DNA of 64,000 nt, from the NCBI RefSeq assembly GCF_000429325.1, contig NZ_AUBQ01000017.1, positions 62,001 to 126,000 of the forward strand, in the 5' to 3' direction. The stretch is from Fundidesulfovibrio putealis DSM 16056. GTDB lineage: Bacteria; Desulfobacterota; Desulfovibrionia; Desulfovibrionales; Desulfovibrionaceae. How positions within the stretch are numbered: the first letter of the stretch is position 1; each line of letters opens with the position of its first letter. The notes under the pieces were generated by a model that made no database searches, was not told the DNA's origin, and worked only from the letters and a program-made list of their open reading frames with translations. The translations under genes were made by a program, and so were the position numbers. Positions 6,914 through 48,582 of this stretch are shown piece by piece.

Positions 6914-7366
6914 ATGGCCCAACTGCCCATACCCGTCACCGAAATTCTCAAGCTCCTTCCGCACCGCTACCCGTTCCTGCTGGTGGACCGCGTCCTCGCC
7001 TACGAGAAGGACTCCTCCCTCACCGCCATCAAGAACGTCACATTCAACGAGCCCTTCTTTCAGGGGCACTTCCCGGACAAGCCCATCATGCCAGGCGTCC
7101 TCATCCTGGAAGCCATGGCCCAGGCTGGCGGACTGCTGCTCGGCCTGTCGCGCGAAGGGCTCGGCGACAAGCTGTTCATGTTCACCGGCATCAACAATGC
7201 CAAGTTCAGGCGGCCCGTGGTGCCCGGCGACCAGCTGACCCTGGAATGCTTCGAGGCCAAGCAGAAGCTCAGCCTCTGGCGCATGAAAGGCCGCGCCACT
7301 GTCAACGGTGAGTTGGCCTGCGAAGCCGAATTGACCGCCGCCATCGTCGATAGAGATAAGATGTAG
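6914..7366 (+). CDS. fabZ: 3-hydroxyacyl-[ACP] dehydratase FabZ
   Basis: Dehydrates beta-hydroxyacyl-ACP in type II fatty-acid synthesis; usually clustered with lipid A genes because both pathways share beta-hydroxymyristoyl-ACP. The 150-aa protein has the hot-dog signature '[13 protein letters not shown]' and catalytic His52 ('GHFP') and Glu66 ('LILEAMAQ'). An AGGAGG Shine-Dalgarno (6904-6909) sits 4 nt before the ATG. The usual partners lpxD (before) and lpxA/lpxB (after) are missing: a terminator precedes the gene and a 480-bp repeat element follows it. Confidence 0.96.
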
Positions 7367-7392
7367 GGGAGAGATGGGGCGCTGCCCCATAC

Positions 7393-7872
7393 CCCGGCGG
7401 GCTCCGCCCTGCACCCGCCAGGGGAGAAGCCTCCCCTGGACCCGGCTTTCCGCTTCGCGTCGTCTGCGGGAGTATTGAGCTGTCAGGGTTGGTGCTGGAG
7501 GCTGTCCCGTTCGTGTCCTTGCGGGCGGGCTAGAACCGATTTGAAGACGATTCGTCGCCCGCCCGCAAGGCCCCGACCGGGACAACCCCCAGCACCTGCT
7601 GAAAGCACGCTCAGCCGCGCAGAATGCACTTTCTACGCGACGAAACGCGAGTGAATGCTGAGAAGCAGGTGGAAGTCAGAAGCATTCAAGTCAGTAGATC
7701 TCGCCAGCCCCCGCCGAAGACGACAAAGAAAAATAAAGACCTGAAGCGCAGCTTTGCGCGCTTCAGGTCTTTTTATTGGCTCAATACTGATTCGTAGCAG
7801 GACGTTACGCGAAGCCCACTGAGGGTCCAGGGGGATCATCCCCCTGGCGGGTGCAGGGCGGAGCCCGCCGGG
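7393..7872. repeat. Composite palindromic repeat element, copy 1 (terminal inverted repeats, no ORF)
   Basis: About 480 bp bounded by near-identical inverted ends of about 50 nt (7393-7443 against 7823-7872), each itself made of small palindromes. Inside are two hairpins. One has 14-bp arms (7517-7530, 7557-7570) around a 26-nt loop; the other is at 7735-7774. A second, shorter copy lies in opposite orientation at 48165-48538: it has the same order of parts and an identical 26-nt loop. Further small palindromes run to about 7917. No credible protein is encoded, so this looks like a non-autonomous mobile or structural element filling the gap between fabZ and the next gene. Confidence 0.85.
7735..7774. 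terminator. Perfect 15-bp hairpin with flanking A and T runs (bidirectional terminator)
   Basis: Arms 7735-7749 and 7758-7772 are perfectly complementary and continue into a T-run, with A-rich sequence on the other side, so it could end transcripts from fabZ (+) and from the TPR gene (-). It is one module of the composite repeat; the corresponding hairpin in copy 2 is at 48261-48294. Confidence 0.75.
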
Positions 7873-7923
7873 TCAAGGGCAGAGCCCTTGCGGGTCCAGG
7901 GCGGAGCCCTGGCAGCTTCCCGG

Positions 7924-8610
7924 CTACTTGCTGATTTCCTTCAGGGCGTCGGCCACGCGCTTGCCATCGGGCATCTTGGCCTCGGGGTTTACGGCGATCA
8001 GCCCTTTCCAGGCGACGATCGCTCCGGGGGTGTCTTTCAGGTCGAAGAGCTTCACCACGCCGATGTTCAGGCGCGACTGCTCGTGCTTGGGGTCGAGCGA
8101 CGCGGCCTGCTCGAATGCCTTCAGGGCGTCCTCGGTCTTGTTCATCATGCGCAGCATCACGCCCATGTCGGTCCAGACATTGGGCTGGTTGGGTTTCAAG
8201 GCCAGGGACTTCTGGTAGGCCATGACGGAGCGCTCGGGCAGTTCCGCGTCAAAGTAGGTGTCGCCGAGCTTGGCCCATACCACGGGGTCGTTGGGCGATT
8301 TGGCGGCCTGGTCTTCCATGGCCTTGGCCTGGGCCATGAGCGGCGATGTCATGGGGTTGCCGCCCTGCTGGCCGGGCATCCCGCCAGGCATGCCCGGGGG
8401 CATCTGGGGAGACGCGGAAGACTGTTGCATGCCGGGCTTGCCGCCTTGCAGCGCGTCCTGGTTGAAGACGACCACAGCGCCCTGCCAACCCATGAAAACG
8501 CCTGCCATAAGCATGGCCACGGCGAACACGGCCGCATTGCGTTTGAGAACCATGCCCTGCGGCGGCTGGGCGTGCTGCTTGTCCTGCGGGGCGGCCTTGG
8601 TCTTCTTCAT
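7924..8610 (-). CDS. Membrane-anchored TPR protein
   Basis: A 228-aa protein with a charged N-terminal tail, one membrane helix (about 28-48), a Gly/Met/Pro-rich linker, and three tetratricopeptide-type repeats in the C-terminal half (for example 'PVVWAKLGDTYFDAELPE' and 'VWTDMGVMLRMMNKTEDAL'). The topology, N-in with a periplasmic TPR domain, is like cytochrome-c-maturation CcmI/NrfG C-terminal parts, but no haem-maturation gene is near. The start has a GAGGAG Shine-Dalgarno. It is the last gene of the run 12954-7924 and probably acts as a scaffold for that envelope cluster. Exact role unknown. Confidence 0.8.
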   Translation of the reverse strand: MKKTKAAPQDKQHAQPPQGMVLKRNAAVFAVAMLMAGVFMGWQGAVVVFNQDALQGGKPGMQQSSASPQMPPGMPGGMPGQQGGNPMTSPLMAQAKAMEDQAAKSPNDPVVWAKLGDTYFDAELPERSVMAYQKSLALKPNQPNVWTDMGVMLRMMNKTEDALKAFEQAASLDPKHEQSRLNIGVVKLFDLKDTPGAIVAWKGLIAVNPEAKMPDGKRVADALKEISK

Positions 8611-48017: not shown

Positions 48018-48164
48018 GCCGATGCAGAGCAAAGAGCCTGCCACAGGCTAACTTGAATCATATCGGCACATTAGCAGTCGACACAAACACAAACAGCACC
48101 ACAAAAATGAAACATGCTACAAATTCGTCATGTTACATGGGGAGAGGCGGCCAGAGGATAAGAG

Positions 48165-48538
48165 CCGGGCTCCGCCCGGACCCGCCAGGGGGATGATCCC
48201 CCTGGACCCTGCAATTAGCTTCGCGGGCAGCATCGTTACTGTTCAGATATTTCGCAAGAGAGCCTTGAAGCGCGCAAAGCCGCGCTTCATGGCTTATTTA
48301 TTCTTGAAATTGCCGTCTTCGACGATGGCTGTGGGCTTGGTGCTGTCACGGTCGGGTTCTGGCGGGCGGGCGACGAATCGTCTTCAAATCGGTTCTAGCC
48401 CGCCCGCCAGGACACGAACGGGACAGCATCCAGCCCACAGCCCCAATCTCAGCCCAACCAACCGCCCACGACGCGAAGCGGAAAGCCGGGTCTGGGGGAG
48501 GCCTCTCCCCCAGCGGGTGCAGGGCGGAGCCCGCCGGG
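48165..48538. repeat. Composite palindromic repeat element, copy 2 (inverted relative to copy 1)
   Basis: About 374 bp with the same parts as 7393-7872, in reverse order and strand. It has TIR-like ends at 48165-48209 and 48488-48538. The hairpin at 48261-48294 matches the 15-bp one of copy 1. The 13-bp-armed hairpin (48359-48371 with 48398-48410) has a loop identical to copy 1 over 26 nt. Between copies the outer stem pairs of the latter change together (TT/AA to GG/CC type, at CTTGC/GCAAG versus CTGGC/GCCAG). It fills the gap between the dead hydrolase and the benE-sahR-ahcY operon. Confidence 0.85.
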
Positions 48539-48582
48539 TCTGGGCGGAGCCCAGCATCATCTCCAAATGCATGATTTCCCGC

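Follow-up and report, generated by a model that had tools for sequence, protein, structure and literature searches.

The locus analysed here raises the question of what keeps a long hairpin paired around a constant loop when the sequence of its stem is replaced, and whether this is selection on a folded strand or the way in which palindromes mutate. It lies in the window, the whole stretch of 64,000 nucleotides that was analysed, from the genome of Fundidesulfovibrio putealis DSM 16056 (4.7 Mb, 29 contigs; G000, called the host below). With six genomes of sister species (G001 to G006, of which G006 is 66% complete), seven genomes of the genus were examined. We call the GC hairpin with the conserved cap H1, and the second hairpin of the composite element H2. 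The cap is a 22-nt pattern that consists of the loop and the cap stem, and the loop, UCUUCAAAU, has nine bases. Individual hairpin loci or stretches across the seven genomes carry L-numbers (e.g. L079).

The element and its second copy in the window

A first-pass annotation, made from the letters alone, had described an element with inverted ends, two internal hairpins and a second copy in inverse orientation. All of these were recovered (Table 1): the ends at 7393-7443 and 7823-7872 are inverted copies of each other with about 90% identity, both hairpins are present, and the parts of the second copy stand in identical order. The GC hairpin had been described as invariant at its centre and changed in pairs in its outer stem, and it turned out that the cap is identical between both window copies and that CTTGC/GCAAG in copy 1 becomes CTGGC/GCCAG in copy 2. 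H2 was said to keep its pairing despite base changes, which holds for most of the stem, with one mismatch in copy 2. The most conserved part is narrower than the 26-nt loop given in that annotation, namely the 9-nt loop plus a cap stem of 6-7 bp. Besides, the strand it described is the poorer folder; the opposite strand folds better, and the 114 bases around H1 reach -88 kcal/mol on the minus strand.

The absence of an open reading frame was confirmed, as the ORF caller finds no gene from 7366 to 7924. To the left of the element lies a gene whose product has a FabA-like domain, read by us as fabZ, and to the right a convergent gene for a TPR protein. Terminal inverted repeats, the lack of an ORF and multiple copies are traits that the element has in common with MITEs. 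In the window, no Rfam family reached its gathering score, nor did any of the matches listed. MicroRNA matches with low E-values were far under the cut-offs and were taken as artefacts of a long hairpin. In the literature searched, no description was found of loop UCUUCAAAU or of such repeats in the bacterial family of the host.

Table 1. Parts of the composite element and of its inverse copy, in window coordinates
Feature	Position	Strand	Remarks
Left outer arm	7376..7443		GC-rich hairpin modules, including the terminal inverted repeat of about 50 nt at 7393-7443
H1	7491..7596	- (better-folding strand)	Long GC hairpin, about 45 bp, with conserved cap
Conserved cap, 22 nt	7533..7554	-	Loop UCUUCAAAU at 7539-7547 on the minus strand
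H2	7734..7774		Hairpin flanked by A-rich and T-rich stretches; look of a bidirectional terminator
Right outer arm	7823..7914		Left arm inverted, plus additional GC hairpin modules
Composite copy 2, inverse	48160..48560 (ends approximate)	-	Between divergent genes
H1 of copy 2	48328..48441	+ (better-folding strand)	
H2 of copy 2	48262..48293		Stem with one A·A mismatch

Copies across the genus and the repeat that carries them

The first-pass annotation had reported the two window copies and proposed a search of the whole genome, which raised the number in the host to 54. Allowing up to two mismatches in the cap, we found 54 copies in the host, 25 in G006, 5 in G002 and 2 in G005, and none in the other 55 of the 59 genomes searched. 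The reversed cap pattern, used as a control, gave no match in any of the 59, so the host copies are not due to chance. In the named species collection, from which host records were possibly left out, the exact cap pattern hit 16 stretches of one organism, Desulfovibrionaceae MAG X3_MetaBAT.36. No match was found in viral contigs or phages, and among plasmids there was a single 43-base match, to a GC module, on one plasmid record.

The hairpin was found only in this genus, and in all seven of its genomes examined, with loop UCUUCAAAU or near variants. Trained on 69 hairpins, a covariance model picked out 6 of the 348 genomes searched in the order at E <= 0.001, each of which belongs to the host genus (ten candidates scored per genome). 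It also matched all five sister genomes G001 to G005 at E <= 0.1 (150 candidates scored). A looser cap pattern, applied to the 348 genomes, matched 20 times in G001, 12 in G002, 26 in G003, 4 in G005, 2 in G006, 1 in G000 and never in G004, and 11 times in ten genomes outside the genus; the reversed control gave one match. None of the six readable out-of-genus matches was a hairpin, whereas all six in-genus loci returned by this pattern were, as were 16 of 18 further in-genus cap matches that were fetched (some truncated at a contig end; the other two not hairpins). Several contigs of G001 and G003 stop within about 25 bases of the loop (L235, L241, L242, L246, L247, L248), and some looser-cap matches sit at contig starts. 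Since contigs end inside H1 hairpins, the copy counts are lower bounds, which is also a warning that draft contigs break within hairpins of this type.

Occupied and empty sites were compared at 21 host copies, for which 40 stretches were fetched by one-sided flank anchors (8 from G006, 17 from G005, 15 from G004). An intact H1 was found in none of the 40 by a test of loop and stem, with two weak flagged matches two bases off the loop; often only one flank aligned, so that the comparisons are not clean throughout. Among 17 site comparisons, nearly clean absences were seen for L072 and L092 against G006, L085 against G005 and L088_7337 against G004, and no target duplication was obvious by eye. 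Copies of one species that are absent from the same site in another thus occur with respect to all three genomes. Partial decay is also visible: half hairpins are kept in G006 at L088_7337, L070 and L101, and at L107 the G006 site has the arms with a different core. In G005 (L191), the site of a host element is occupied by two half elements with a longer stretch between them that is probably a gene.

The outer arms have a wider range. Their pattern GCCTCCGGCGGCCARAG was recovered from 43 of 150 genomes, which represent 12 of 36 genera and without exception belong to the family of the host. With up to 124 copies per genome, it seems to be an independent repeat of the family as a whole. Since such arms are found in other genera of the family, the carrier repeat is wider than H1. 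A stretch like GATTTCAAGAATAA also recurs by eye beside H2, between H2 and H1, in host copies such as L099 and L071; on the other strand it reads TTATTCTTGAAATC, one base from the loop context TTCTTCAAAT of G001 and G003.

H2 keeps the loop (A/G)GCTTTGC in most host copies found, and its stem varies in pairs without strand asymmetry (20:26 for G·U vs A·C, counted in 32 copies of the host). As in an intrinsic terminator, T-rich tails follow its GC stem, by eye, on both strands in many host copies, so that H2 would most simply be a bidirectional terminator. In the G002 copies read, H2 has no T-rich tails. The G002 elements that were read carry H1 and H2 in reversed order on the same strand, which suggests that the two hairpins are separate modules.

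To summarize the location of H1 relative to genes, we used an ORF-based caller in place of an underpowered sliding-window vote on the coding strand. At 27 of the 54 host copies the neighbouring genes converge. At 21 they stand in tandem and the H1 strand is sense to the gene upstream (one of these copies is flagged inside a called ORF), and at 4 they stand in tandem with the H1 strand antisense. One site, copy 2 of the window, is divergent, and one is uncalled. The tandem bias of 21:4 (p 0.0009) is a host feature, the corresponding ratio in G001 to G005 being 8:7, and this counts against a role as RNA at 3' ends. A regulon was considered and rejected, the 45 upstream proteins scanned (for 45 of the 54 copies) being functionally mixed.

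Constancy of the loop, pairing of the stem and choice of strand

The loop is TCTTCAAAT in 39 of the 54 host copies, and the remaining 15 differ by one or two changes, the loop finder tolerating two. It is likewise TCTTCAAAT in 23 of 28 hairpins from the five other species; in G004, two of three hairpins have TCTTCAGAT. Around this near-invariant loop the arms change together. Over 44 stem positions in the 54 host copies, pairing of a copy's own arms reaches 0.80 vs 0.67 for arms swapped between copies, and none of 2000 permutations exceeded 0.70. RNAalifold gave 32 pairs, 25 of them with double changes. The cap pattern yielded 11 more hairpins in G001, G002 and G003. Outside the cap, their 5' arms have a mean identity of 43% vs 34% when shuffled (one pair 72%), and 36 to 44 pairs are formed despite the differing arms; this set excludes the non-hairpins L250 and L252, a repeated 5' arm (L227/L237) and the already known site L230. 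The stem register adjacent to the cap varies between species.

The paired changes and near-invariant loop, now seen in 54 host copies and six sister genomes, support the proposal of the first-pass annotation that a folded single strand is under selection. It had also held that further copies with broken stems would speak against this, and in part this applies, since half or rearranged copies do exist. Paired change by itself is no proof of selection, as the arms of inverted repeats are homogenised by template switching (PMC8794818, PMC8604942). Loop conservation and the asymmetry of G·U over A·C described below point beyond template switching, though the asymmetry is not found in every species.

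Sites shared between species allow the rates of change to be compared directly. By their flanks, 19 G006 hairpins match sites of host copies; 11 shift-free G000/G006 pairs were kept, six being dropped for shifted, rearranged or cut arms and two for caps opposed relative to the flanks (L079/L119 and L075/L055). It turned out that 3 of 99 loop bases, 4 of 143 cap-stem bases and 95 of 924 outer-stem bases had changed (loop vs stem, p 0.018; loop plus cap vs stem, p 0.0001), the apparent loop rate being lowered by the fact that the G006 copies were found by the cap. There were 23 double changes vs 4.9 expected, and 19 of them keep the pair. A first version with 13 pairs, including the two with opposed caps, gave 5/117, 5/169 and 131/1092 respectively, with 275 of 2536 aligned bases changed in the inner flanks. 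The element in L055 is closer to that in L081 than to that in L075. In the G006 hairpin L120, one of the six dropped, arms of two types are joined with a loss of pairing, by recombination or as a MAG chimera.

As a control free of the cap, sister sites of ten G001/G003 hairpins were located by flanks alone. Three of the ten have no hairpin and seven keep it, two of these being truncated at a contig end or by a stretch of N. Not one of the 63 loop bases differs at the seven, one loop being matched as its reverse complement, and the five shift-free pairs have 25 of 324 stem bases changed vs 0 of 45 in the loop (p 0.056). Four other G001/G003 pairs, both members of which were found by their hairpin, have 0 of 36 loop changes. 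The inverted loop is that of L239 vs L253, at one site in two sister species, with one cap-stem base different. Such an inversion is the kind of change that template switching yields (PMC8604942) and predicts, so that this mechanism also acts here. Besides, L159 of G002 has an H1 downstream of the same gene as the window fabZ site (7533), with another stem and the opposite loop orientation.

To figure out which strand is folded, we counted, in the stem outside the cap, G·U on the strand with UCUUCAAAU against A·C, which would be G·U on the opposite strand. The ratio was 96:23 in the 54 host hairpins, 43:17 in G006 and 68:29 in 28 hairpins of the five other species pooled, where some of the non-host hairpins had been found with a G·U-tolerant model and the host copies by the cap only. 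The UCUUCAAAU strand also had the lower energy, cap included, in 53 of 54 host hairpins, 20 of 23 in G006 and 28 of 28 in the five others. When 11 new hairpins were added, the species stood at 33:10 in G002 (several copies of which have a common stem and hence are not independent), 10:3 in G004, 17:5 in G005, 15:10 in G003 and 8:7 in G001; the new hairpins alone gave 15:6 (p 0.078), with the lower energy on the UCUUCAAAU strand in 10 of 11. The host, G002 and G005 thus show a strong preference, G003 a weak one and G001 none. For the 15 hairpins with an antisense gene as their nearest upstream neighbour, the ratio was 32:16, and 13:11 outside G000 and G006. The base skew of the H1 flanks is small.

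Extruded cruciforms and the homogenisation of arms are strand-symmetric, so we take the wobble asymmetry to reflect selection on a single folded strand, which is best supported in the host. This strand, opposite to the one described in the first-pass annotation, is most likely the form under selection. Covariation together with a strand-specific wobble preference, as expected of a structured RNA, is found, G001 alone being excepted. In DNA, G·T outpairs A·C as well, which counts against the RNA reading. The lack of asymmetry in G001 somewhat lowers our confidence in the explanation favoured below and in its extension, and gives slightly more weight to each of the rival explanations.

Possible roles and relatives of the hairpin

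The explanation we favour, with a probability of roughly 45%, is that H1 would be a dispersed RNA hairpin at 3' ends, read through its loop and carried by a REP/MITE-like repeat. On this view, the window element represents a non-autonomous palindromic repeat of mosaic structure, the copies of which lie mainly downstream of genes. Its outer arms are a REP-like repeat common to other genera of the family, and its centre consists of H1, about 45 bp with loop UCUUCAAAU and found in one genus only, together with a terminator-like H2 in many host copies. At transcript 3' ends, a trans-acting factor may recognise the loop as presented by the long stem, with an effect on processing or stability of the 3' end irrespective of the gene. 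The copies would spread together with the carrier repeat, and template switching would supply many of the paired stem changes, which selection then filters. The half or rearranged copies, the mixed upstream genes and the lack of strand asymmetry in H2 count against such a role. An extension that we hold more tentatively is a genus-wide ribonucleoprotein or single-strand-binding system with up to dozens of sites per genome, in which one factor would read the UCUUCAAAU loop alone and leave the stem free to be rewritten, so that a loop-addressed 3'-end tag spreads with a non-autonomous repeat.

The folded strand might also be single-stranded DNA, on which a transposase or nuclease would act in trans, in a REP- or IS200/605-like manner, with the loop as the recognition site of the enzyme. 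Such a mobile element would suit the dispersed copies, the stems that look closely similar in many host copies and the sites in G006, G005 and G004 from which the element is wholly or almost wholly missing, and a fixed strand polarity suits ssDNA as well as RNA. However, the search for autonomous partners, which covered PF01797 and PF00078, lends no support to the RAYT or IS200/605-type transposase proposed in the first-pass annotation: Y1_Tnp (PF01797) has no match in G000, with 5 of 14 control genomes positive. The sites compared by eye have no obvious target duplication, and mobility alone does not require that loop and pairing be constrained at shared sites. We consider a DNA element rather unlikely. 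No link of H1 to reverse transcriptases emerges either way: RVT_1 (PF00078) has no match in G000, G002, G005 and G006 and is present in G001, G003 and G004, and all of them carry H1.

Two explanations dispense with a reader of the loop. An ordinary REP-like or terminator repeat, which passively ends transcription or stabilises mRNA, agrees with the placement at 3' ends, the terminator-like H2 of the host and the mixed upstream genes, but a passive stem whose own sequence is replaced has no need of a constant 9-nt loop, and we find this quite improbable. Still less credible to us is a mutational relic, in which template switching homogenises the arms of old palindromes without any selection on the hairpin. 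The excess of double changes far above expectation, the inverted loop between sister species, the opposite orientation at the fabZ site of G002 and the nearly balanced wobbles of G001 (8:7) all speak for it, and the mechanism is described in PMC8794818 and PMC8604942. Yet a relic predicts balanced G·U and A·C, where 96:23 was found in the host and 68:29 in the pooled species elsewhere, and it predicts no conservation of the loop, which recurs in seven of seven genomes with differing stems.

Several known systems are similar to the proposed 3'-end hairpin and its carrier. REP and BIME repeats with RAYT (TnpA-REP) are likewise dispersed intergenic palindromes and mosaic arrays of GC hairpins; their active form is a folded single-stranded hairpin (PMC8266576), and REPs measure 20-40 bp (PMC3733652). 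H1 differs from them in its length of about 45 bp, its changing stem with a constant loop, and a host in which no Y1_Tnp was found. In ERIC and NEMIS, sequence conservation extends over the whole unit, unlike in H1, which keeps its loop and cap and not its stem. ERIC, NEMIS and RU are intergenic palindromes foldable as RNA, some of which determine the stability of mRNA in Neisseriae and Yersiniae, and ERIC folds as a single long stem-loop (PMC2267715). MITEs share the non-autonomous state, terminal inverted repeats, lack of an ORF and presence or absence between sister species, but the present element has no autonomous partner found in the PF01797 and PF00078 searches, no obvious target duplication, and arms made of nested hairpin modules. 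Retrons and repeated msDNA-like sequences have a long hairpin with a variable stem, whereas H1 occurs in G000, G002, G005 and G006 without an RVT_1 match. H1 may also bear a resemblance to the T-loop, boxB, attC and rolling-circle origins.

In conclusion, H1 is a real dispersed hairpin family, constrained in its loop and its pairing, and kin in kind to ERIC, NEMIS and REP but conserved in loop and cap only. With many long hairpins per genome that have a common loop and little common stem sequence, the genus offers a natural experiment, in which selection on a fold can be told apart from homogenisation by template switching. Provided that one of its species can be grown in culture, the search for a factor that reads the loop would be testable.
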